Translations under genes and position numbers: made by a program
Assembly (NCBI GenBank): GCA_016784965.1
Contig: JADHTQ010000010.1
Location: 1 to 64,000, forward strand
Length of the DNA: 64,000 bases
DNA from: Bacteriovoracaceae bacterium
GTDB taxonomy: Bacteria; Bdellovibrionota; Bacteriovoracia; Bacteriovoracales; Bacteriovoracaceae
Reading direction: 5' to 3'
Shown here: positions 35,000 to 51,477 of the stretch, piece after piece
Layout: each line of letters starts with the position of its first letter
Position numbering within the stretch: the stretch's first letter is position 1
Notes under the pieces: generated by a model
The model's input: the letters and a program-made list of their open reading frames with translations, nothing else
What the model was told of the DNA's origin: nothing
Databases searched by the model: none

Positions 35000-37900
35000 C
35001 TAGATTGCAGGTAAAATGGGGAGAACCTGCTCATATCGCTTAACTAAAACCTCAAGTTTTTCGTCCAGGAAATTCTTTAAGATCTCCAATTTCATGTCAT
35101 AAACAATTTTTACTTCAATCGGTGCATCATCAGGAACTTGACCTAAGTTTTCTACGACAGAAATTAATTCGGCCAGACCTTCAATGCCAAGCTGTTGAGC
35201 TACAAATGTCTTTTTACCTATTTCTTCTCCCAGCATTCCGATTAAATCAGCTTCAGTAAACAGGTTGCCAGCAGCGTTAAGCGATAGAAGCTGTTTTAAT
35301 AAACCAACATCGACAGTGGCAGCAATTCTTTGTTCGTCTGTGAAATCTTCAGGCAAAGATCTATCTTTAAGGATTTTCTTTAGTAGTTCTTTATCCATAG
35401 TCTTTAAAAGATTTAAATAATGAACAGAATTTATCATTTCATAGGCGACACTGTTTTCATCAATAGAGCCATAGACGTATTCTCCAATGTTGTGCTTGGA
35501 AATATCTTCGTTAGCTATCCCATCGGCGATGTCTCTTTTTAAGACACCCATGAAATTTACAAATTCTCTTGATACATTCTCATACGTACTATCATCGGTT
35601 TTGGCGTACTTATTTGCCATGTATAAAACTGCCTTAACCAGTGGCGTGGATCCATTGTAAGAAAGTCCAAAATATTTTTTAATCCATCCGACGTACTGAA
35701 CAGGTATTTGTTCATCAACAGTAATTGAATAGTTTGCAAGAAACTGACTGCCATCTTTTTTAGTAAAGGGGATGGGGTTAGACAATTTACTGCCCATAGT
35801 AACGTGGCTGATGTAATTAAATAACTGTTGTTTGACTTCTGTGATTTCAGCAAAGCTACCCATAATAGCTTCAGTACTATTACTTGATTGGCGTGTGGTT
35901 AGTGTTCGCATAGCAAGTAATTTATCAACCCAGGTGCCTAGTACTGCTCGATCTTGAATATACTTAAATCTTGGGTTTGTATCTTTAAAGCCTCGTAAGA
36001 ATTTACCTGTTTCACCCAAAACATACAGGCCTGGAGCATCCGGTTTTCTAGGATCTATTTTTGCAAGTTCTGCTTTTACTGCAGGATCAAAACAGCTCGT
36101 GGGTACATAATCTATTTCATACTTAACATCATTGTAGATTGTCTGTAGTGGTCTAAATTCTTTAATCGATGGTGGCGTAGGTCCTGCATCTGGCGCAGGG
36201 ATTTCAGCTACGGCACAGATGTGATCTGGCATTTTAAGAACATCTATAAAAAATTGACCAGCAAGTTTGGCCGAATCTCTTCTATCATTGATCATGGTAC
36301 AAAGATCTGGGTATTGGGCCATATCTGCAGGCCCACAACCTTGCTCCATCAACTCTTGACCAAACATAGAAGCAAAGGTCTCAAAGTCTTCAAAAATCAT
36401 TCTTAGAGATTTGAAATTTCTATAAATCCGACTAGCGTAAGAACCGATATGCATGGCACTGAATTCATTTCGACCATTTCTGAAGTTTCGGTATTTATAG
36501 GCATTTTCATATTGTTTGATGGCATACTGTGTGATTTCTACCAATGTTGTCCCTTCATCAAAAGGATTACATTTAGCACTTAGACCAGCATTTCCATCAG
36601 TACAAAAGTCATATGGCTTCATTTTAAAATTACTGTCTTGTTCTAAGTCAGTTAGAGTCGTATCTATTTTTTTGTATCCTCCACTTATGGCTTCAACTTC
36701 CCTGGCGTAAGCAAAGCGAAGAGCGGCAATATCATATTTACCAAGAACAGTTAACTCATTAAGCTCTGAAAAAGAGTAATCCATTATCGAACTATAGGCC
36801 GGAGCTGCGTGAAGACCAAGTGCATGAGCTTCTGCTTCAGAGTAGAAGTTTTTCTTATCTGTAGAGCCTGTGAAGTTATGTCTTAGACCTAAGTTGTGAC
36901 CTAGCTCATGGGTTAGTGTTGCAGAGTAAGTATATGGAGTTATTAAATCGATTGCTGCTTTTTGCTGCTCATCGGTTAAAGTGGCCCAACGCTTAAATGT
37001 TCCATCACTATTTAACACTCCAGGTATGTCTCTAGTTCCAGGAATGTAGGCCTTACCGAAGTTATTGGTAATACTAAATGCTTCTGTAGTTAAAATGTTA
37101 TGTTTTGCATATTGCAACAATTCCTTGTCATGTTTTGAAATTAAATCCTCATCGAGCTCGTCATGACTATGGTTATGGTCAGGACTTATGTATGTATGTA
37201 ATTGCTCGTTTGTTTTGTGAACTGCCTCTTCAAACCTTTGCTCAACATTATCAAGCTCTTCTAATGAAGGTCTCTCTCCAATAGTAAGGTTTGCAAGGTG
37301 AGCAGCATTGCCAGCGGCTCCTGTATATGATGCGGCTTCTGCTGTGGTTGGTATAACTACTGCGTTTGCATCTGCTGCAGCTGCGGTAGCTGCAGCTGCC
37401 TCTGCTGCGGCTGTTGCCGCGGCGCTTGCTTCTGCCGCTGCCTGCGCTTGTGCAACTGCTGCTGCTTGCGCCTCTGCTGTTGCTTGTGCCTGTGCTGTAG
37501 CTGCTGCTTCTGCCTCTGCTGCAGCCTGTGCTTCTGCTGCGATAGCTGCAGCCTGTTGTGCCGCTGCTTCTGCTGCATCTGCTGCCTGTTGTGCAGCTGC
37601 GATGGCGGCTGCATTTGCGGCGGCGGCTTCCTCTGCTGCGGCGGCTGCCGCGGTACTTGCAGCTGCTGCTGCCTGTGCTTCTGCGGCTGCGGCAGCATCG
37701 GCTTCTGCGGCTGCGGCTGCGGCTTCTGCGGCTGCTGCGGCTGCGTCTTCTGCCTGTTGTGCAGCTGCGATAGAGGCTGCATTGGCTTGGGCGGCAGCAA
37801 GTGCAGCTTCTTCATTTGCAGCGGCGGTAGCTGCTGCTTGTGCTGCTTGTGCTGCGGCTGTGGCATTGGCGGCTTCTGCTGCATTTGCAGCTTCAGATGC

Positions 37901-40900
37901 TTGTGCTTCTGCGGCGATAGCTGCTGCATTTGCCTCTTGTGCGGCAGAAGCTTCTGCCTCTGCGGTGGCGGCTGTTGCGGCAGCTTCTTCGGCTTCTAGG
38001 GCAGCTGCTGCGGCAGCTTCTGCTGCTTGTGCTGCTTCTGCCTCTGCTTCTATGGCCGCTGCGATTATAGCTTGCCTGTCGGCTTCCTTTTTCTTGTCAA
38101 CACTTAAGTCAACCATATTTTCCCAAACTCTTCGGGTCATACTGATCAAGCTACCGGAGTACATGTTGACATGCGCTTGTACGATTTCACCGGTTCTGGG
38201 ATTTGTAACAGATGGGCCATAGCCCAATAAACCACTATGGGATGGATCATCGAGTAAAACAATCATGTTGTTTGTTAGGTCACCAGGGTTTTTGCCAGCG
38301 GGTTCTTTTAGTTCAAGTCTTAGATTAGTGTTGGCCCTTGCGAGCGAATCATTGATTTCGTTGAATACCCTGTAAGTAGCTTCTTTAAGTAACTTATTTT
38401 TTGCTTTGTTAAAGGTGTCACTTAAGTAGTATACAATCTTACCATTTTTGGGGTTCCAGCGATTAAGAAAGAATTTTACATCAGTTCTGCTGGGATCATA
38501 GTTGATACCTAGTTTTTCTTTTTGATTTTTGAAAAAACCAAAATCATCATGTTCTGTCACAGGGTAATCTACAGTCTCGTAATTGGGTGATATAACATCA
38601 TTTAACCTTACAAGAGAGTAAGAGTATTGCATTTTAAAACTACCCTCTTCAAGGTCGTTAAACTGACCTTCGGTGTAGCCATGTATAAAGCCATCTAGAC
38701 TCACACTGTAGGTCTTTTCAATTTGGATATTAATCATACCCTTTTTAATAGTGTATCCAACCACTTTAGTGTTGCGATGAGATATACCTGGACCTGAGAT
38801 ATTATAAAATTCAATTTCATTGAGTTCATGAATTTGAAGCCTTTCAACTTGAGGAATAAAGTATCTTTTTTGCGACCATGATATTTCTCTATCTTCTTGA
38901 TCGCCATTAACACACTCTTGGTTTCGATCCTCTTTACACTTATAATCTACATATCTTCCAGGGATTGTTAAGATAGGTTGAATATTAATATTGTTATCTT
39001 GAAACCGTTCATCTTCATCAAGAGCATAAACATCAATTCCATCCTTTGATGGCCTAATCTTTACGATTTTTTCCTGACCTTGAAAGAATTGATAAGCAGA
39101 GCTTAAAAATCTAGGAGCACCCAATGTAGATGGTACGTAGAGGTATTCGGCTTCAAAGTCATAATCATTATTTAGTGCTGTTAGCTCTTCATCTACAAAC
39201 TTGATGTGCTGACCAATTCTGTAAGTTTTAAGCTCAGAGTGAACGCTTATTTTAAGCAGTTTACTATCTCTGCTATCAACAGCAGTATCCATATCGGTAT
39301 AGATCTGTTCAACACTATCAATAATTGTCATTTTAAGGCCTACAAATTTAACCCCTAGGTTATACTCTGGTCTAAAAACACAATCTTCATCTAGATCCAT
39401 TTGCATTTTTTCTTTCATAGAAGCTGAGCAATTAAAAATTCTTGGATCTTTTGGTACTTTGGTAAGTGCTGCAAGCTCTAAGTCACTGAGATCAGCTTTT
39501 TTAACTGCACGAAATACCACCATTTGGTTACCAATAAGCTTAGTGTAAAGAAATTCAGAGTCAGCCAGATCTCTTAATGCATAGTGGTTAGTAAATAATT
39601 CTTTAAATTTTGCCATCTTCCAAAGTTGATTGTGAACTCTGCCTTTGGCAAAGATGTATTCAGAGTAAAACTTGTAATCAATATTTGGATCAGTAAAAGC
39701 ACGATCAACAAATAGAAGGTTTTGTCCAATTTGATATTCATGAATCATAGACTTAACATTTATCTGCAAAAATGTACTGGCCTTTTTGTAAGCATCTTCA
39801 GCAAGCTTGAAAGAAATTTTTTCGTCATCTTCATCAACATTCATTTTCAACTGAACGTGTCTAACATCCAAGGCAAATTCTGGTCTAAATACACAGTTGC
39901 CATTGCTTAAAAGCTCAAGTTCTAATGCCTCTTGTTCACTACAAGGAAAAATCCTAGGATCTGCTGGTTGGTAGTTTAAGGCCATACTTTCAATTGGAGT
40001 AAGCTCACTACTTTTTACCGCCTTTAAAAAGTAAAGTTTATCACCATACACTTTAATTCGGGCATAATCGTCATCTTTAAAAGATAGCATTAGATAATAG
40101 TTATTGGGGAAAATTGTTTTTAACTTAGCTATTGACCAAAGTTCGTTATTTAATTTTGCTTTATCAAATACATACTCTGAATAGTAGTTGTAATCATGTT
40201 TTGGATCATTTAGTACATCATCTATAAAGAAAATATCTTCGCTAATTTTATCTTTTTTAACAAGTGATGTGGTATTAATTTTAAGCAACTGACTAGTTTT
40301 TCTATCGGCATTTTCATCTAATTCGATTGCTGCTAATTGCTGTCCATGATCGTTTTGTGACTTAATTCCTACATGGGTTACAGGTAAAGAATATTCTGGC
40401 TTAAAAATACAACCTTCAGTTTCTGAAAGTCCCACTAATCTTCTTTCATGATCGCTACAGGCAAAAAACCTTGGATCAGAATGTGATTTTTGTGAGGCGA
40501 TATTTTCTAAGTAGGTAAGTGTTTCTAGGGCAACAGGTTTTAAAACATATATTTTATCTCCAAAGATTTTGGTTCTGATTAAATCTTGGTCTTCTAGGGT
40601 GTTGTTTAATACTAAGGAGTTAGAGAATACTTTCTTAAAAGAAGCTGCTGTCCAAAGTTTATTGTTGATTTTAGCTTTACTAAAAACTGTCTTGTTAAAT
40701 TCATCGTCCATTCCAGGAAGTCCACCCAGGGATCTACCTGCTGCTAAAGCAGTAATTTTTACGTGAGTTGCTTCAAACTTATCTTTTGTCTTATAAAGGA
40801 TAGTTCTGGTTTTTTCTCCCATGTCATTTTTATCATTTTCTAAGATCCCATAACTTTCAACTTTGTATTGAAAGATGGGGACTTGGGTAGTTTGCTCATT

Positions 40901-41326
40901 ATTCATGGCCTTCATGTGACTTGAAAAATTGTGGCTTGCAACATTTACTGATGCTACAAGATACTCCTTGGTTAACTTCATAGTAACTTCGAAGCGCTCC
41001 CCAGCTCTTCTTGACTCAAGCTTTAGATCTTTGAAGTAGGGTGCTAAAGCTTTAGGACCAGAAATGAATTTCACTGCGCGGAATTCATTTTCATTCAGTG
41101 CAATAATATCACTGCCTTCAGCTTCTTTTAACATTGACACTCCATCTCCAACTGATTCCAAAATAATTTTTTGGTCAAAAGTGGACATGTCATGAACATT
41201 GTTTTGGATATCTTCAGAAACCTTTTCAGGAATTTCTTTGGCACATCCCACAAGTAGCAATGCTCCCAAAACAACTAAGTTTAGAAACATTTTAAAGTTC
41301 ATGTTCTTTGGTGCTAAATAATTCAT
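35000..41326 (-). CDS. giant metzincin-like lipoprotein with Ala-rich insertion
   Basis: I start at the ATG at 41326 (AAGGGGAG upstream), giving 2108 residues; the lipobox is VLGALLLVGC (Cys28). Three about-185-residue repeats (from about 200 to 780) each hold LWxxAKFKxxF, DPRIFxCS and CVFRPE, with one Cys pair per repeat. The catalytic core then follows: ARANTNLRLEL, NPRTGEIVQAHVNMYSG, and at 1473-1483 HELGHNLGLRH with Met-turn YSSIMDYS. It resembles the DUF4953/5117-type zinc metalloproteases. Between the GEIVQAH strand and the zinc helix sit about 240 residues that are almost all Ala, Glu and Gln. It is co-oriented with the upstream barrel gene. Substrate unknown; probably a surface-anchored protease. 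Confidence 0.85.
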   Translation of the reverse strand: MNYLAPKNMNFKMFLNLVVLGALLLVGCAKEIPEKVSEDIQNNVHDMSTFDQKIILESVGDGVSMLKEAEGSDIIALNENEFRAVKFISGPKALAPYFKDLKLESRRAGERFEVTMKLTKEYLVASVNVASHNFSSHMKAMNNEQTTQVPIFQYKVESYGILENDKNDMGEKTRTILYKTKDKFEATHVKITALAAGRSLGGLPGMDDEFNKTVFSKAKINNKLWTAASFKKVFSNSLVLNNTLEDQDLIRTKIFGDKIYVLKPVALETLTYLENIASQKSHSDPRFFACSDHERRLVGLSETEGCIFKPEYSLPVTHVGIKSQNDHGQQLAAIELDENADRKTSQLLKINTTSLVKKDKISEDIFFIDDVLNDPKHDYNYYSEYVFDKAKLNNELWSIAKLKTIFPNNYYLMLSFKDDDYARIKVYGDKLYFLKAVKSSELTPIESMALNYQPADPRIFPCSEQEALELELLSNGNCVFRPEFALDVRHVQLKMNVDEDDEKISFKLAEDAYKKASTFLQINVKSMIHEYQIGQNLLFVDRAFTDPNIDYKFYSEYIFAKGRVHNQLWKMAKFKELFTNHYALRDLADSEFLYTKLIGNQMVVFRAVKKADLSDLELAALTKVPKDPRIFNCSASMKEKMQMDLDEDCVFRPEYNLGVKFVGLKMTIIDSVEQIYTDMDTAVDSRDSKLLKISVHSELKTYRIGQHIKFVDEELTALNNDYDFEAEYLYVPSTLGAPRFLSSAYQFFQGQEKIVKIRPSKDGIDVYALDEDERFQDNNINIQPILTIPGRYVDYKCKEDRNQECVNGDQEDREISWSQKRYFIPQVERLQIHELNEIEFYNISGPGISHRNTKVVGYTIKKGMINIQIEKTYSVSLDGFIHGYTEGQFNDLEEGSFKMQYSYSLVRLNDVISPNYETVDYPVTEHDDFGFFKNQKEKLGINYDPSRTDVKFFLNRWNPKNGKIVYYLSDTFNKAKNKLLKEATYRVFNEINDSLARANTNLRLELKEPAGKNPGDLTNNMIVLLDDPSHSGLLGYGPSVTNPRTGEIVQAHVNMYSGSLISMTRRVWENMVDLSVDKKKEADRQAIIAAAIEAEAEAAQAAEAAAAAALEAEEAAATAATAEAEASAAQEANAAAIAAEAQASEAANAAEAANATAAAQAAQAAATAAANEEAALAAAQANAASIAAAQQAEDAAAAAAEAAAAAAEADAAAAAEAQAAAAASTAAAAAAEEAAAANAAAIAAAQQAADAAEAAAQQAAAIAAEAQAAAEAEAAATAQAQATAEAQAAAVAQAQAAAEASAAATAAAEAAAATAAAADANAVVIPTTAEAASYTGAAGNAAHLANLTIGERPSLEELDNVEQRFEEAVHKTNEQLHTYISPDHNHSHDELDEDLISKHDKELLQYAKHNILTTEAFSITNNFGKAYIPGTRDIPGVLNSDGTFKRWATLTDEQQKAAIDLITPYTYSATLTHELGHNLGLRHNFTGSTDKKNFYSEAEAHALGLHAAPAYSSIMDYSFSELNELTVLGKYDIAALRFAYAREVEAISGGYKKIDTTLTDLEQDSNFKMKPYDFCTDGNAGLSAKCNPFDEGTTLVEITQYAIKQYENAYKYRNFRNGRNEFSAMHIGSYASRIYRNFKSLRMIFEDFETFASMFGQELMEQGCGPADMAQYPDLCTMINDRRDSAKLAGQFFIDVLKMPDHICAVAEIPAPDAGPTPPSIKEFRPLQTIYNDVKYEIDYVPTSCFDPAVKAELAKIDPRKPDAPGLYVLGETGKFLRGFKDTNPRFKYIQDRAVLGTWVDKLLAMRTLTTRQSSNSTEAIMGSFAEITEVKQQLFNYISHVTMGSKLSNPIPFTKKDGSQFLANYSITVDEQIPVQYVGWIKKYFGLSYNGSTPLVKAVLYMANKYAKTDDSTYENVSREFVNFMGVLKRDIADGIANEDISKHNIGEYVYGSIDENSVAYEMINSVHYLNLLKTMDKELLKKILKDRSLPEDFTDEQRIAATVDVGLLKQLLSLNAAGNLFTEADLIGMLGEEIGKKTFVAQQLGIEGLAELISVVENLGQVPDDAPIEVKIVYDMKLEILKNFLDEKLEVLVKRYEQVLPILPAI
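37350..38080 (-). repeat. Ala/Glu/Gln-rich low-complexity coding repeat
   Basis: About 243 codons of nearly uninterrupted Ala with regularly spaced Glu, Gln, Asn and Ser, written mostly with GCN, GAA and CAA codons. Periodic AAxAEA units suggest a long single alpha-helix or coiled coil. The DNA is visibly GC-richer and repetitive, which creates long false frames on all other registers. Confidence 0.9.
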
Positions 41327-41355
41327 GCTCGTATCTCCCCTTAATATAATAAACA

Positions 41356-42198
41356 TCACAAAGCATAACTAAGTGATAAATAAACTGTAGATGTTCTTGG
41401 ATTAATAAATTTTACTGCGGATTCTACTCCATCAGAGGCCAGCGCTGATCCAGAGTTATAGTGACCAAGTGCCATGCCAAATGCGTCAGTAACATCGTAG
41501 GATATTGACTGATCAAATGAGAAACCATCTTTTGAGTCTCCTGAAAAAGTCCAAGACCGAGAGTAAATATTATCAAGTGAAATCGAGAATTTTTTTAAAA
41601 AACTGTAGCTAATTATGAGTCGATTGCCAAAGGTGAATTGGTCATTCGACGCCCCAGACAATGCTACTTCATATCTATAAAATGCGACTTTCCCATAAGG
41701 CCTGTAAGTGATAGAAAGACCTGGAGTAATAAACTTTGTCATATCAAAAGTAAAGGTGGGCGCGATAGTTATCTTGCTTAGCATTTTTTTGTTATCCCTA
41801 GAGTTTTCGCTAAGAGGTATAATCGCTGCAGCCAAGCCACTAAAGGTTATGAAGTCGGCAAATTTTGTAAAAACCTTTGCAATACTTAATGAAGCGTCAT
41901 TAAGCGTTAATTTTTTTTCTCCCATGAGGTTTTTTGACACGGCCATATATAAGCCAAGCTTGGCATCGATGGGTAATTTGTATTTATATGAAAGCTCAAA
42001 GTCATTACTGAGACTGTGATCCACGTCTGTGACCTTGTGTAGGCTAGAACCTAGGGTACTAATTAATAGAAGTGAAAACCTTTTTTCCTCTTCTTCTTTT
42101 ACGGTTGTAGTGGTTGCTTTTGCGTTTTGGATATTGTTGAGATTTAAAATGATTGCCGAAAAAATAGTTATTAAGGTAATTGTAAAAACTTTATTCAT
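41356..42198 (-). CDS. outer-membrane beta-barrel-like protein
   Basis: A 280-residue protein with a signal peptide (MNKVFTITLITIFSAIIL, then a site near NAKA). Alternating short strands rich in aromatic and Ser/Thr residues (YRYEVALSGASNDQFTFGNRLII, for example) end in YLSLSYAL, typical of small outer-membrane barrels. No family was recognised. It starts the unit that continues 29 bases later with the giant metzincin, and may help anchor or export it (inference). AGAGGAATGAG precedes the ATG. Confidence 0.65.
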   Translation of the reverse strand: MNKVFTITLITIFSAIILNLNNIQNAKATTTTVKEEEEKRFSLLLISTLGSSLHKVTDVDHSLSNDFELSYKYKLPIDAKLGLYMAVSKNLMGEKKLTLNDASLSIAKVFTKFADFITFSGLAAAIIPLSENSRDNKKMLSKITIAPTFTFDMTKFITPGLSITYRPYGKVAFYRYEVALSGASNDQFTFGNRLIISYSFLKKFSISLDNIYSRSWTFSGDSKDGFSFDQSISYDVTDAFGMALGHYNSGSALASDGVESAVKFINPRTSTVYLSLSYAL

Positions 42199-44129: not shown

Positions 44130-44669
44130 ATGAAAAAGAGATTGATTATTTTTATGGTTTTTTGTTGTTTTGGAGCATCAACTGTCTTTGGTGCCCTTTT
44201 GTCGACTAAGGAAGCAAAAGTAGCAGTAGCTGTTTGTGAAAAAAGTGCTCCTGGTTTTAAGGCGACAAAGAGCAAACAAGATAGTGTTATTTTTAAAGTA
44301 AAAATGAAAAAGGCCAAGAGTTCTGTTAAGTGTAAAGTTAAAATAAACATTGATGAAGGCATAACTGTTGACTATGTAAAACTTAAACCTTCTAAAGCGA
44401 CAGGTTACAAAAAGCAAACTCTACCAGATGGTTCCAAAGCAAAAAAGAAACTGTCTGAACTTTCTGACGTGGCAAAACAAGCTTGTATTAAAACGTCGAA
44501 AGGATTTTTAGTTAATAAGTTTAAAAAAGATAGTTTTACCTATAAAGTTTCACTTAAAAAAGGCAAAGAGAAAATTAAGTGTAAAGTCAGACTAAATAAG
44601 GATTTAGGTACAAAATATGTAAAACACAAAACCAAAAAAAGTAAAAAGTATATCGAGGTAAAATTATGA
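44130..44669 (+). CDS. secreted Lys-rich protein with duplicated unit
   Basis: A 179-residue protein with a signal peptide (LIIFMVFCCFGASTVFGA). The mature part is very basic and consists of two copies of one about-60-residue unit: VCEKSAPGF/ACIKTSKGF, then DSVIFKVKMKKAK/DSFTYKVSLKKGK, then KCKVKIN/KCKVRLN. Each copy has one conserved Cys pair. Function unknown; a basic repeat protein could bind acidic polymers. Its end overlaps the next start by 4 bases (ATGA), indicating coupling. Confidence 0.7.
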   Translation: MKKRLIIFMVFCCFGASTVFGALLSTKEAKVAVAVCEKSAPGFKATKSKQDSVIFKVKMKKAKSSVKCKVKINIDEGITVDYVKLKPSKATGYKKQTLPDGSKAKKKLSELSDVAKQACIKTSKGFLVNKFKKDSFTYKVSLKKGKEKIKCKVRLNKDLGTKYVKHKTKKSKKYIEVKL

Positions 44670-46201
44670 GTGGTACACAGACAGTTTCAGATCCTCTCGA
44701 TATCTCTAACTTTAGTTTAGCAGATCTGCCACCTAAAAAAGTAACTGATGCCGAAAAGTGGATGAAATATGTGGGGTTTGTTTTAGGTATTGTGGTGTTT
44801 TTGGCAATCTACTATATGCCCAAGCCCGATGGATTAACTATGTCGGGGCAAACTGTTTTGGCCTTATTTGCCTTGGCCTTAGTTTACTGGGTAACAGAAC
44901 CAATTCCCACTTATTTAACGTCTCTAGTGGTAATGATTCTTTTAGTCGTTTTAAATGGTTGGAGTGAAAAGCATGTAATGGGTGTGTTGGGTTATGATGT
45001 CATCTGGCTGAATATGACCTCTTTTATCCTTAGTGCTGGTCTTTTGCATTCCGGAATCGCTAAAAGAGTAGCAATTTTTATGATTAGCAAGTTTGGCCAT
45101 ACAGATCTGGGAGTTTTGGCATCCTTTTTATTTATGCATATGGTTTTGGCCGCTATGGTGCCATCGCCTGTTGCTAGAGTGGCGATGCTTCTGCCACTTA
45201 TGTTGATGGCCTCTGCGATATATGGCTCGACACGAGAAAATCCCAATAAGTTTGCAAAAATTTTATTTCTACAGAACATCCATGGAGTAAATGGTTGGAC
45301 TTCAGCATATCTTACAGGTGCCAATGCTCATATCTTAGCGGTGGTCATGATCACTAGTATGGTAGGGGAGCCCGTCTATTATTCAGACTGGCTAATTGCA
45401 GCTTTCCCGGTTGCGGGCGTTGCTCTTATCATTGACTGGTATTTGGGACCGCTTTTATTTAAGTTGGCCCCAGAAGAAAAAATCCCCCAACTAAAAGGTG
45501 GTATGGAGCGCTTAGAACAAGAGCGAGCAAAGCTTGGTCCCATGACCCTCGTGGAAAAGAAGGCATTGGGATTTTTTGTAATTGTAATTTTTCTTTGGGC
45601 CACAGACCGGATACATATGCCCACTATTGGATTTGAAATATCTGCTTCTATGACAGCTTTAATCGGAGCAGTGTTAATGCTTTTGCCGAAGGTTGGGATT
45701 ATTGATTGGGGCAAAACAAATATACCATGGCATCTTTTACTATTTAGTGCAGGGGCTTATGCATGTGGTTTTGGTTTAAATGACACAAGGGCGGCACAGT
45801 GGGCGGTTGGATCTTTGTTTGAGGCAGTAGGCCTCGCACCTGGAGTAAATTTTTGGGTAGTATACTCCATCGTTATTTTTGTAAATATGTTTAGCCACCT
45901 CTTTTTTACATCTAAAACGATGAGAACATTAATTTTTATACCATTTATAGTTACCATGGCCCAAACATTAGGATTTAGTCCTCTATCACTGGCCCTACCA
46001 GCAGCATTTACGATTAGTTGGGTTATAGGGCTTCCCATTTCGGGAAAACCCAATGTACTGCTGTTTGGTACAGGACAATTTTCTGCAATAGACTGTGCAA
46101 AATACGGATTGACGATGACCTTTATTGTTAGCTGTCTTTTAATTGCAGCAGGATTTACTTGGTTTGCATTTTTAGGGATTACACCTGCTTTTTGGAGATA
46201 G
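44666..46201 (+). CDS. SLC13/DASS-family anion symporter
   Basis: A 511-residue inner-membrane protein with at least ten hydrophobic segments. Family-like stretches are ALFALALVYWVTEPIPTYL, NMTSFILSAGLLHSGIAKRVA, VPSPVARVAMLLPL and GLPISGKPNVLLFGTG. These sit where DASS proteins have their two anion-binding motifs, but the SNT motif is replaced (VPSPVA). Likely substrates are di/tricarboxylates or sulfate. It overlaps the previous gene by 4 bases, and a porin follows 25 bases on, which fits an uptake route across both membranes (inference). Confidence 0.82.
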   Translation: MSGTQTVSDPLDISNFSLADLPPKKVTDAEKWMKYVGFVLGIVVFLAIYYMPKPDGLTMSGQTVLALFALALVYWVTEPIPTYLTSLVVMILLVVLNGWSEKHVMGVLGYDVIWLNMTSFILSAGLLHSGIAKRVAIFMISKFGHTDLGVLASFLFMHMVLAAMVPSPVARVAMLLPLMLMASAIYGSTRENPNKFAKILFLQNIHGVNGWTSAYLTGANAHILAVVMITSMVGEPVYYSDWLIAAFPVAGVALIIDWYLGPLLFKLAPEEKIPQLKGGMERLEQERAKLGPMTLVEKKALGFFVIVIFLWATDRIHMPTIGFEISASMTALIGAVLMLLPKVGIIDWGKTNIPWHLLLFSAGAYACGFGLNDTRAAQWAVGSLFEAVGLAPGVNFWVVYSIVIFVNMFSHLFFTSKTMRTLIFIPFIVTMAQTLGFSPLSLALPAAFTISWVIGLPISGKPNVLLFGTGQFSAIDCAKYGLTMTFIVSCLLIAAGFTWFAFLGITPAFWR

Positions 46202-46226: not shown

Positions 46227-47408
46227 ATGAAGAAGAGTTCAAATAGAATTATTGCGACGTTATTACTTTTATTGTCAACGCCACTTTTTGCTGGCAACGA
46301 ACACAAGCTAGGGATGAGTTTGTATTTAGATATGGTTAAAATTGGCGATAACAAAGAAAATATCAAAGGTGGAATAGAGTCAAGAAAAGCTCTAATAGCT
46401 CTTGAGTCAAAATATGGTGATGATTGGGAAACAGAGCTAGGATTTGATATTAAAGGTAAAGATAAACTTTCAATTAAAGATGCTTGGGTATCATATGCTG
46501 GCCTTGGCAAGACAATTATTAAATTTGGTAATCATAAAGTTCCCTTTGGTCTCGATTGTGTTACTAGCTCAAAGTCAGCGACATTTATGGAATTATCAAT
46601 GGCCAGTGAATTTTGTCCCGGAAGAAAAGTTGGACTCAGTGTTAATGCTTGGGATGGTAGATGGTGGACATTCCATGGAGGTCTTTTTGGAGATAGTGTT
46701 GGAAATGGACCTGAAGGGGAAGATCCCGATAAAAAAGCATATGAAAACATAAAAGCACCAAACTTTAATGAAGAGCTAACTGTTGCCGGACGTTTAACAG
46801 TAAGACCCATTATGAGCGATAATATGATCTTTCACCTTGGTTTTTCCGGGTTTTTTACTGACCCTCCCAATTATGGTGTTGCTGAGTTAGATAAAATTGA
46901 TTTTGAAGCACCTCCCGAAATTAACCTTCACGCTAAAGAGTTAATTGGAGATGACATTGAAAATGTATCAAATTTTTCTGGATTATCATTTGACGCGGTG
47001 TTTGTCTGGAAACAACTATCCTTTCAAGGAGAATACTTCATTATTAATGTAGATCAAAGAGCAACAGATTTAGACCCCAAACTTTCTGGCTACTTTGCCC
47101 AAGCGAGTTATTTTGTTACAGGGGAGTCAAAAAAATATAAGAAAAGAACTTCAAAGTATGGCGGAGCTTCAAGACCAAATCGTTCATGGGGTGCCCTTGA
47201 GGTGGCGGTGCGCTATAGTTTGATGGACTTAAATGACTTTGATGCCAATATTGCTCATGGAAAGGAAAAGAATATTACTTTCGGTCTTAATTGGCATGTC
47301 AACAAGAGAGCAAAAGTGCTATACAACTTCGTTACTGCCATTACAGATGAGCATGCAGGTGATGATAAGTTCACAATTCATGGGGTGCGAGTACAGTATA
47401 CATTTTAA
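46227..47408 (+). CDS. outer-membrane porin (OprP/OprO-like)
   Basis: The 393 residues have a signal peptide (IIATLLLLLSTPLFAG) and many short amphipathic strands, with GFDIKGKDKLSIKDAWVSY, IKFGNHKVPFGLD and ending in IHGVRVQYTF with a C-terminal Phe, the standard barrel-assembly signal. The DAWVSY...G..KVPFG pattern is typical of phosphate-selective-type porins. It is downstream of the SLC13 transporter and probably supplies its substrate. AAGGAG precedes the ATG. Confidence 0.8.
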   Translation: MKKSSNRIIATLLLLLSTPLFAGNEHKLGMSLYLDMVKIGDNKENIKGGIESRKALIALESKYGDDWETELGFDIKGKDKLSIKDAWVSYAGLGKTIIKFGNHKVPFGLDCVTSSKSATFMELSMASEFCPGRKVGLSVNAWDGRWWTFHGGLFGDSVGNGPEGEDPDKKAYENIKAPNFNEELTVAGRLTVRPIMSDNMIFHLGFSGFFTDPPNYGVAELDKIDFEAPPEINLHAKELIGDDIENVSNFSGLSFDAVFVWKQLSFQGEYFIINVDQRATDLDPKLSGYFAQASYFVTGESKKYKKRTSKYGGASRPNRSWGALEVAVRYSLMDLNDFDANIAHGKEKNITFGLNWHVNKRAKVLYNFVTAITDEHAGDDKFTIHGVRVQYTF

Positions 47409-47506: not shown

Positions 47507-49075
47507 ATGTCTGCACCAACTGATACTTATTACCGAGGACTTGAAGGAGTTATTGCGGCAGAATCCAAGATTTGCTACGTAGATGGAATAAAGGGAGAGT
47601 TATTTTATCGAGGACATGAAATTAGTGGCATTATAAACAATCCCAATCTTCACTACGAAGAAGTGGCCCTGCTTTTGTTGTGTGGAGGGATGGCCGGCAA
47701 AGAAAAAGTTGATAGCTTTAAGGCCAAACTACTCAAATATCGAAAATTTAATAATCGAATATCAGATATAATAAAAGACTTCGCAGTTGACACTCACCCG
47801 ATGAAAGTGATGCAAGCTTGTACTGCTGCTTTGGGTGGAATTTGGGATAACAAAGATGGTGATGATGCCAATGAAATTTTTTTGGCTTACATATCTCAGT
47901 TTCCCTTAATTATTGCAGCCTATTGGAGATATTCAAATAGACAAGAAATCATTGCTCCAAACCTTAAGTTGAGCTTTTCTGGTAACTTCTTATACATGTT
48001 ACTAGGTAAAATCCCCTCTCAAGAGCATATAGAGGCCTTTGACAATGCCCTAATTCTTCATATGGAACACGGCTTTAATGCCAGTACTTTTACTGGACGA
48101 GTAATTGCTTCATCTATGGCAACAGTTAGTTCATCTTTATCAGGTGCTTTGGGTTCTTTGACTGGACCTCTTCATGGCGGCGCCAATGAACGTGTGCTGG
48201 AGATGGTGGAAAAGATTGGAAGTGTAGATAATGTTAAGAATTTTCTCGATGATTTGATTGATAATGGCGGTAAAGTGATGGGTATGGGTCACAGAGTATA
48301 CCGCGTTAAAGATCCACGAGCAAAATTACTGCAAGATATTATCAAAACATTAGATGTTGAAGATAAGAGGGTTAAAGAAAGGCTTGATATTTTAAATGAA
48401 GTTGACTCTTATTTTTCTCATAAAATGGAATTAAAGAATAAGCAAATTTATCCAAACGTAGATTTTTATTCTGGAACACTTTTAAGTATTTTGGGAATTG
48501 ATCCTCTACTTTTTACCCCAATATTCGCTCTTGCAAGAGTTGTCGGGTGGTGTGCACACATCAGAGAACAGTGGCAGGACAATAGAATATTTAGACCCAA
48601 GTGTCGGTATGTAGGTGCTGTTAATTTGAAAATGGGTGAGCAAGATGTTGAGTATGATCAACTCAAACCAAGTAAGAAAAAAGTAATGATTATCGATGAT
48701 GATCCAGATATTGTTGAGGCCATGCAGATTCCACTCGAGGCCAATGGTTTTAAAGTAACTTCCAGCAACACTGTTGCAAATGCTGTGGAGTTCATCACTG
48801 AAGAGGAGCCAGACATTGTGCTTTTGGATGTTTCGTTTCCTGAAAACCATACTGCTGGATTTGATGTATGTTATGAAGTAAGAGAACATCAAGGAATCAA
48901 ACACATTCCCATCGTAATACTTTCTGCGATTAGAGAAAAATTTGGTCTACCATTTACAATTAGCGGTCAAACTCGCACAAACAGGGCAATACCCGTTGTT
49001 CCGGCAGATAGGTTGCTTGAAAAACCTCTAAATCCTGAGGCGCTACTTACAGTTATCGACGAGTTAATCGGCTGA
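47507..49075 (+). CDS. citrate synthase fused to a response-regulator receiver domain
   Basis: Residues 1-385 are a complete citrate synthase, with the catalytic His223 (PLHGGA), His262 (MGHRVY) and Asp319 (NVDFYSG). Residues 391-522 are a full receiver domain: acidic pocket D397-D399 in MIIDDDPD, phospho-acceptor Asp441 in VLLDVSFPE, Ser473 and Lys506 in LLEKPLN. It condenses acetyl-CoA and oxaloacetate in the cytosol. The receiver suggests control of TCA entry by phosphorylation. A GAF histidine kinase gene follows in the same direction after 108 bases and is a natural partner (inference). AAAGGGG precedes the ATG. Both parts are in one uninterrupted frame. Confidence 0.93.
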   Translation: MSAPTDTYYRGLEGVIAAESKICYVDGIKGELFYRGHEISGIINNPNLHYEEVALLLLCGGMAGKEKVDSFKAKLLKYRKFNNRISDIIKDFAVDTHPMKVMQACTAALGGIWDNKDGDDANEIFLAYISQFPLIIAAYWRYSNRQEIIAPNLKLSFSGNFLYMLLGKIPSQEHIEAFDNALILHMEHGFNASTFTGRVIASSMATVSSSLSGALGSLTGPLHGGANERVLEMVEKIGSVDNVKNFLDDLIDNGGKVMGMGHRVYRVKDPRAKLLQDIIKTLDVEDKRVKERLDILNEVDSYFSHKMELKNKQIYPNVDFYSGTLLSILGIDPLLFTPIFALARVVGWCAHIREQWQDNRIFRPKCRYVGAVNLKMGEQDVEYDQLKPSKKKVMIIDDDPDIVEAMQIPLEANGFKVTSSNTVANAVEFITEEEPDIVLLDVSFPENHTAGFDVCYEVREHQGIKHIPIVILSAIREKFGLPFTISGQTRTNRAIPVVPADRLLEKPLNPEALLTVIDELIG

Positions 49076-49183
49076 TTTTTTTAAATTGTGTCAATAACTT
49101 ATAGTTTCCATAAAGATCCAATAACTTTTTTAGTGTAAATTTGTCTATAAAAGATACTGTTTGCTATTGTGGGGATGGCGCAT

Positions 49184-50473
49184 ATGAAAAGTAGCAATTC
49201 GTTGGAACTTAATCCAAAAAGCAAAAAAGAGTGTGGTTTACAAAGGGTTTTGCATCAAGTTTTGCAAGTGTCTCTTGAGGACCTACCACTACAGGAGCTA
49301 TTGAGCAAAGCCCTAGATGCAATTTTTAATGTTTCGTTTATGCCGATAAAAAACCAAGGGGCGATTTTTTTAGTTGACGAAAAATCAAATTCCTTAACTT
49401 TAGCGGCTAACCAACACCTACCTGATCACTTGATAAAAAGGTGTGCATCGGTCCCATTTGGTCAATGCATTTGTGGTAAAGCAGCACGGGATAAAAAAGT
49501 TCTTTATAGTGGAGAGTATAATAGTTTACACACTATTCAAGATACATTTTCCCAAAGTCACAAGCACTACAGTGTACCTATAATCTATAAGGGTACGGTC
49601 ACAGGTATTTTAAATGTATATCTAAAAAGCACTCATGAAAAAAATGAATTCGAGGTTGATTTTCTATCGGCAGTTGCCAACGTATTGGCCGGAATTATTG
49701 AGAGAAAGAAAGTTGAAGGTAAACTTAAGGGCTATGTTTTGGCACTAGAGCAGGCCAAAGATAATGCTGAAACGGCAAGTAACGCTAAATCTGATTTTCT
49801 ATCTCGTATGAGTCATGAATTGAGGACTCCGCTCAACTCAATTTTAGGGTTTGGACAACTTTTAAATGAAGATGATTCACTGCCGCTTGTAATGCAAAAA
49901 CAATATGTGGACTATATTTTAAAAAGTGGTGAGTTACTGCTATGTCTAATTGATGAGATGTTAGATCTTGCCAAAATTGAATTTGGCAGTATCAATATGA
50001 CGATAAAAGAGATCTCCCTAGATGGAATTATTAAGGAATGTTTGTCAATGACAGACCTTAGTTCCAAGAAACATAAAGTTACAGTAGAAACAGATATCGA
50101 AGTCGGGCGTTATGTGTTGAAGGTAGACTATGTATGTATAAAGTAAATAATATGCAACCTAGTAGGTAATGCTATCAAATTTAATCACAGTGGTGGCAGT
50201 GTAAAAATTAGCCTGGGTGAGTCTAAAACTGCTGATATGTTACTTATAAATATTACAGACACTGGCGTGGGAATAGACGAAAATAAGTTAGGGAATATTT
50301 TTAAACCGTTTGTGCGAATTAAAGGGATGCGCTCAAATCTTGCAGGTACGGGAGTTGGTCTTACCATTACTGAAAAGTTAGTGACTGCAATGGGTGGAAA
50401 AATAGGTGTTTCCTCTGTGCTTGGTGTGGGCAGTACTTTTTCGGTTGAGTTGCCAGGGGGTACAGTTAACTAG
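49184..50473 (+). pseudogene. GAF-domain sensor histidine kinase with one in-frame stop
   Basis: I start at the ATG at 49184 (GGGGAT eight bases upstream; GTG at 49169 is also open). A GAF domain (about 20-180) has VPFGQCICG. A coiled linker leads to the H-box FLSRMSHELRTPLN (His211) and helices of the dimer domain. At 50144-50146 TAA replaces the expected conserved Gln in IK-(Q)-IICNLVGNAIKFN. The same frame then continues through the N-box, DTGVGI, GTGVGL and GSTFSVELP to 50473. A single C-to-T change (CAA to TAA) explains this. It may be a fresh nonsense mutation, a read error or a read-through stop. Upstream of the stop, 320 residues lack the ATPase domain. Confidence 0.85.
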
Positions 50474-51477
50474 GGGACTTCTTCTGTTGCAAATTCATAT
50501 GGTGTTTTTGTAAACTCAATGGCATACAAAAACACTTCATTACTATTTTGGACACGCACAACTCTTCCCTCAAAGTTAGAAAACCCAGGACCATCTTCAC
50601 CAATTTGGCCTGAAATGATGTCATTTTCTGATAGAACTTTGTTACCTGGGTTTATAATATCAAAAATTAGCATGCCAAATTCACTATAGTTTTTTGTTTC
50701 AAATTGCAGTAAAGTGCTGTTGACGGTTATGTAAACTGGTACACTACCTTCAAAGCGAATAGATCTTCTGGTTGCAGATCTTAGATCTTTTAAATATACA
50801 TGTTTTCTCTGACTCAACTTTGCAACACTGAAATATTGCTTTTGAGGTAGCTGTAATGCTGTTAGTTTGTTATCAAAAAAACAGGCAGTATCGATGTTTA
50901 TTCTTTGATCATCTTCGAATATATCTTCCATGGGAGTGTGACCATGTATAATTGTTTTACTCCACTTGTACTCGCTTTCAAAAAAAGGCTCTCTAATCCA
51001 CAGTAGGGTCGTTTTATGCTCATCTAGCTGACTTTTAATATCATCTAAGGGTAGATCTGGAAGGCCTGCATGTACAAAAAAATAGTCATCCGTTTCATAG
51101 GTGAGTTGTAGGGATTTATAAAACGCTAGGTGCTCTGGTGGAATTTTAAAGCGGTCACTGACACTTTTGTAGCTTTCTAAAGTAGCTCCTCCACCATTGT
51201 AGATAAATAAACCAGCTTCTTCACCAGACTCATCTTCTAAAAAATCCAGCAACATCTGCTCATGGTTTCCCATTAGGGTAATAACTTTGAAATATTTTTT
51301 TAATTCTAAAATCGTATCAATAACCTCGGATGATTGAGGTCCACGATCTATGTAATCGCCTAAAAATACTAAGGTTGAATTATCTTCAAGCGGCAATTTA
51401 TTAATTAATAGTCTTAATTCTGAAGCCATTCCATGAATATCTGAAAAGACAAAAATGGAGTCATTTGATTCTTTCAT
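50470..51477 (-). CDS. PPP-family phosphatase fused to a PilZ domain
   Basis: Residues 1-215 are a PPP-type phosphoesterase: SDIHG (D13, H15), GDYIDRG (40-46), GNHE (70-73), VHAG (His136) and HGHTP (178-182). Residues 228-325 fit PilZ: RRSIR (R237xxxR241) and NYSEFG (263-268), the paired c-di-GMP motifs, in a beta-barrel-like context. No signal peptide, so cytosolic. It may dephosphorylate proteins or dinucleotides under c-di-GMP control (inference). Its stop overlaps that of the sensor kinase gene by 4 bases. Alternative: ApaH-type activity with a structural C-terminal domain. Confidence 0.8.
   Translation of the reverse strand: MKESNDSIFVFSDIHGMASELRLLINKLPLEDNSTLVFLGDYIDRGPQSSEVIDTILELKKYFKVITLMGNHEQMLLDFLEDESGEEAGLFIYNGGGATLESYKSVSDRFKIPPEHLAFYKSLQLTYETDDYFFVHAGLPDLPLDDIKSQLDEHKTTLLWIREPFFESEYKWSKTIIHGHTPMEDIFEDDQRINIDTACFFDNKLTALQLPQKQYFSVAKLSQRKHVYLKDLRSATRRSIRFEGSVPVYITVNSTLLQFETKNYSEFGMLIFDIINPGNKVLSENDIISGQIGEDGPGFSNFEGRVVRVQNSNEVFLYAIEFTKTPYEFATEEVP

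Follow-up and report, generated by a model that had tools for sequence, protein, structure and literature searches.

The usual outputs of two-component systems are transcription, motility, and second messengers, and several response regulators, such as CheB, PleD, RpfG, and PorX, have enzymatic output domains. As for citrate synthases, solved dimers carry the C-terminal arm at the interface between subunits, close to the active site. Proteins that join a receiver to an enzyme are known; as far as the literature shows, a central carbon enzyme as the output is undescribed. Our search, which most subscription papers lay outside, found no paper on a citrate synthase-receiver fusion. One co-occurrence met in the literature, in Geobacter metallireducens (PMC2700814), proved unrelated on inspection.

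The window analyzed here, a 64,000-nucleotide stretch of DNA from a Bacteriovoracaceae bacterium (genome G000), encodes such a protein. The original prediction was of a citrate synthase fused in one uninterrupted frame to a receiver domain, and this was borne out: a single ORF runs on the plus strand from an ATG at 47507 to a TGA ending at 49075, encodes 522 amino acids, and contains both Pfam domains. A purine-rich ribosome-binding site (AAAGGGG) lies immediately 5′ of the ATG, and third-position G+C is similar in the citrate synthase and receiver halves. The key residues named in the prediction (H223, H262, D319, D441, and K506) are all present at those numbers. The fusion gene, its parts, and its plus-strand neighbors are as follows.

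44666..46201 (+), DASS-type sodium/anion (di- or tricarboxylate-like) transporter (PF00939, E = 1.9e-69)
46227..47408 (+), Porin_O_P outer-membrane porin, the upstream neighbor (PF07396, E = 9.1e-43)
47507..49075 (+), citrate synthase-receiver fusion gene, 522 aa (single ORF, Pfam, homologous 517-aa fusion in L001)
47537..48601 (+), citrate synthase domain, aa 11 to 365, with catalytic H223, H262, and D319 (PF00285, alignment to solved structures, residues, fold)
48635..48676 (+), linker, aa 377 to 390, where citrate synthases usually have a C-terminal YxxIExR tail (alignment A1, pLDDT)
48677..49072 (+), receiver domain, aa 391 to 522, with D397/D398, D441, S473, and K506 (PF00072, residues, alignment, model)
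49169..50146 (+), GAF and HisKA part of a histidine kinase gene that an in-frame TAA cuts short, probably not the partner (Pfam GAF_2 and HisKA, sequence, subfamily tree)
50147..50473 (+), HATPase_c part of the same kinase, in the same frame past the stop (PF02518, E = 4e-24, translation)

The first half of the protein matches Pfam Citrate_synt over the full length of the model (aa 11 to 365; model positions 1 to 357 of 357; E = 6e-116; 387.8 bits versus a cutoff of 27), and its motifs LHMEHGFNAST, GHRVYRVKDPRA, and NRIFRP align with those of 8RJK. AlphaFold modeled the 522-aa fusion with a mean pLDDT of 85.5 and predicted the citrate synthase fold confidently; with this model, Foldseek retrieved citrate synthases from the PDB at a target TM score of about 0.9. 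This half is a predicted type-II-like citrate synthase. Oxaloacetate and acetyl-CoA are its likely substrates, an assignment short of certain because none of the NCBIfam citrate synthase equivalogs listed scored above its cutoff (the best reached 374.6 versus 502 and 368.8 versus 421.3).

The second half matches Pfam Response_reg (aa 393 to 478; E = 1.7e-14; 54.4 bits versus a cutoff of 30.2) and has the five receiver strands in the AlphaFold model. It keeps the acidic pocket D397/D398, within an acidic run at 397 to 399, the phosphoacceptor D441, S473, and K506; an acidic pair, phosphoacceptor Asp, Ser/Thr, and Lys are common to the receivers of the window, L001, G019, and G029 in our alignment. 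It has a long β3-α3 loop and an insert that replaces α4; the α4 region (476 to 496), site of the insert in this receiver type, is poorly predicted. The best-scoring NCBIfam receiver model is NF045717 (DVU0259 type), at 63 bits versus a cutoff of 160, which places the window receiver outside that family as defined.

The same architecture occurs in a second, independent genome, the metagenome-assembled genome Gpa_5 (L001/G143), which rules out misassembly as the source of the window fusion. This 517-aa protein is 54 to 55% identical to the window protein over its length and came from a scan of 84,980 species genomes with exact peptide patterns, whose reach is limited to close relatives; phyla beyond the two discussed here were sampled by that scan alone. 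The genome grouping used here puts G143 in another phylum than the window, as no genome in its phylum group bears a window-phylum handle. Fusions were found in 1 of 369 genomes of the window phylum and 1 of 80 of the G143 phylum, and nowhere else among these 449 genomes; searches of plasmids (no locus spans 80% of the query) and of viral contigs found none. With so few examples and a canonical GltA encoded elsewhere in G000, the fusion might be a chance or neutral event that leaves citrate synthase to function normally, with a receiver that serves no purpose. We consider this very improbable: the two fused receivers are only 45% identical, yet both keep the catalytic residues, and the same receiver/kinase subfamily adjoins citrate synthase in unfused form as well.

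The unfused form is clearest in G019 (L054), from the same family as the window, where a TPR gene, a citrate synthase gene, and, 5 nt further on, a single-domain receiver gene are found with a convergent membrane histidine kinase gene. This citrate synthase is the closest outside the fusions (57 to 58% identical), and the receiver is 45% identical to that of the window. The G019 synthase and receiver are in different reading frames (7692 and 8834 are out of register), so losing a stop codon would not by itself fuse them. In G029, a TPR-receiver-kinase operon (homologous TPR gene, 45% identity; receiver, 47%) is divergent from icd, encoding NADP-isocitrate dehydrogenase, and a canonical gltA. 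In G143 itself, the ATG of a histidine kinase gene lies 1 nt downstream of the fusion stop codon.

Trees group the citrate synthases of G000, G143, and G019 in one clade (support 100/99), the receivers of G019, G029, G143, and the window in another (88/86), and the kinases of G019, G029, and G143 in a third, the ATHELKAPFAAIQSY subfamily (97/98). This membrane kinase subfamily (about 40% identity or more) has three members in the 449 genomes, each adjoining a citrate synthase gene; the link between citrate synthase and this receiver/kinase pair is therefore conserved, although the fusion is rare. Two distant kinase relatives (33% identity) in G444 and G445 also pass E = 1e-50; the one in G444, whose flank was read, adjoins a receiver gene and an NADH-quinone oxidoreductase gene. 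No citrate synthase gene was present in the stretches read around receivers of another clade (G000 C59, G039, G041, and G029 C42). The fusion architecture is related to the cluster of separate citrate synthase, single-domain receiver, and ATHELKAPFAAIQSY membrane kinase genes. The grouping of the G000 and G143 citrate synthases has support of 53/13, and the trees do not settle which of G000, G143, and G019 is basal; possible histories are a single fusion followed by fission or transfer, or two fusion events.

The predicted sensor kinase gene does lie next to the fusion, but an in-frame TAA (50144 to 50146) splits it (49169 to 50473) between HisKA and HATPase, leaving the ATPase domain beyond the stop; both halves are otherwise intact, and the gene is a recent pseudogene, or else the TAA is a sequencing error. 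That this GAF-HisKA kinase is the true partner, by readthrough or because the gene is whole in the living population and the TAA reflects a sequencing error or recent mutation, fits its position, adjoining and on the same strand, with the frame kept on both sides of a single TAA and a HATPase domain that is still well formed. It is nevertheless quite improbable: besides the loss of the ATPase domain to the stop, the kinase falls outside the ATHELKAPFAAIQSY clade that neighbors these receivers (100/98, though on a long branch) and is not conserved beside the G143 fusion or the G019 gene pair. The proposed partnership is thus not supported; the relatives use a different, membrane-bound kinase. 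On the opposite strand, the gene for a calcineurin-like phosphoesterase with a PilZ-like domain at its C terminus (50470 to 51477, minus strand) has its end directly against that of the broken kinase.

The G000 assembly encodes no membrane kinase belonging to the ATHELKAPFAAIQSY subfamily. The genome has two receivers of this broad type and two kinases of matching type, one on C59, paired with its own receiver, and an orphan on C19 that has a Rossmann-like N terminus and lies beside molybdenum-cofactor genes. By elimination among the G000 kinases of the right type, the C19 orphan is a candidate partner of the fusion, albeit a weak one, because its phosphoacceptor helix resembles that of the C59 kinase; it may serve the C59 receiver instead. 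Histidine kinases with a Rossmann-like nucleotide-binding N terminus (GAGxGG), paired with such receivers or orphan, were also seen at L060 (7124 to 8320), L053 (5980 to 7143), and L085 (5992 to 7173); these may sense NAD(H) or something like it.

Besides the fusion, G000 has two further citrate synthases, three in all: a canonical GltA on C56 (TIGR01798, 733.9 bits versus 485), beside phosphotransacylase/acyl kinase-like genes, and a PrpC-like enzyme on C15, within a prpBCD-like cluster. Since the canonical GltA and PrpC are also encoded, the fused enzyme is an accessory isozyme. The description of the window protein as a central metabolic enzyme needs qualifying to that extent. Upstream of the fusion, the DASS transporter, whose PDB relatives are DASS dicarboxylate/citrate transporters, is separated from the porin by 25 nt, and the porin from the fusion by 98 nt with no terminator-like site on the plus strand in the gap; a shared operon is plausible. 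Neither L054 nor L055 has the transporter and porin beside citrate synthase. Farther upstream (35000 to 41359, minus strand), the window encodes a 2,119-aa protein, predicted to be lipoprotein-like, that contains a zinc-metalloprotease-like motif (HELGHNLGLRH) and a long repeat stretch rich in alanine and glutamate.

We lean toward reading the fused protein as an accessory isozyme of citrate synthase regulated by its own receiver. A histidine kinase other than the broken neighbor would phosphorylate D441, and because the receiver is carried on the C-terminal arm, which in solved enzymes lies close to the active site where the subunits meet, phosphorylation would most likely shift the activity or oligomeric state of the isozyme. 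The enzyme would then probably be switched directly by a sensor, and control would proceed without a transcription step. Linker residues 382 to 388 are low confidence or disordered (pLDDT < 50), which would also fit domains that are only loosely held together. Alternatively, the receiver might have no effect on catalysis, serving instead to dock citrate synthase onto a kinase complex or other partner, or the protein might be a phosphate sink that reports on the enzyme to the kinase. Besides the disordered linker, two observations suit this idea: most receivers of this type are single-domain proteins, found beside kinases and redox enzymes, that must act through protein contacts, and receiver and synthase are separate in G019. 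We regard it as rather unlikely, however, since direct control suits equally well or better both the attachment of the receiver to the arm near the dimer interface and the adjacency seen in several genomes.

Receivers of the same broad type turned up in other settings. At L082 (1459 to 2544; G440, C14), the redox repressor Rex, with its DNA-binding and CoA/NAD-binding domains, is fused to a C-terminal receiver, a second case of a receiver joined to a redox-related protein. Reading of translations placed other such receivers beside genes for [FeFe] hydrogenase, Rex and a NuoE-like protein, hyp hydrogenase maturation, and NADH-quinone oxidoreductase (L068, L081, L086, and L067). These neighborhoods suggest a general role for receivers of this type in redox and energy metabolism. 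On a broader and more tentative reading, which may well be right but which we stop short of calling probable, these genes represent a conserved, sparsely distributed two-component system with citrate synthase as its direct output, in which a fused or separate receiver would switch carbon entry to the citrate branch without transcription, and related receivers, one of them fused to Rex, may do likewise for other redox and energy proteins.

Direct phosphocontrol of the entry enzyme of the citric acid cycle, if true, would be a new type of two-component output, and one easily assayed, with enzyme and receiver on one polypeptide and with acetyl phosphate and the standard DTNB assay as tools. The separate-gene and icd-gltA-linked versions open the hypothesis to testing in several species and point to direct contact as the way in which this subfamily's single-domain receivers control enzymes.

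Compared with type II citrate synthases of the small bacterial/archaeal form (closest solved structures, Synechococcus elongatus 8RJK/8AN1 and Metallosphaera 6ABX), the fusion has the same complete domain and fold and shares the catalytic His-His-Asp and the oxaloacetate-binding motifs, but the linker and receiver stand in place of the C-terminal tail. Features shared with the DVU0259-type single-domain receivers (NF045717) are, in the relatives examined, a long β3-α3 loop (LDVxFPENxxAGF) and an insert before the EKP lysine; the window receiver differs from them in being fused to an enzyme. The unfused G019/L054 cluster belongs to the same citrate synthase and receiver clades as the window, with the genes adjacent but separate, and includes a TPR protein and a membrane kinase, both of which the window locus lacks. 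Like CheB, PleD, RpfG, and PorX, the window protein joins a receiver, with its phosphorylation residues present, to an enzyme; unlike them, it has a C-terminal receiver, and its output enzyme belongs to central carbon metabolism, not to signaling.
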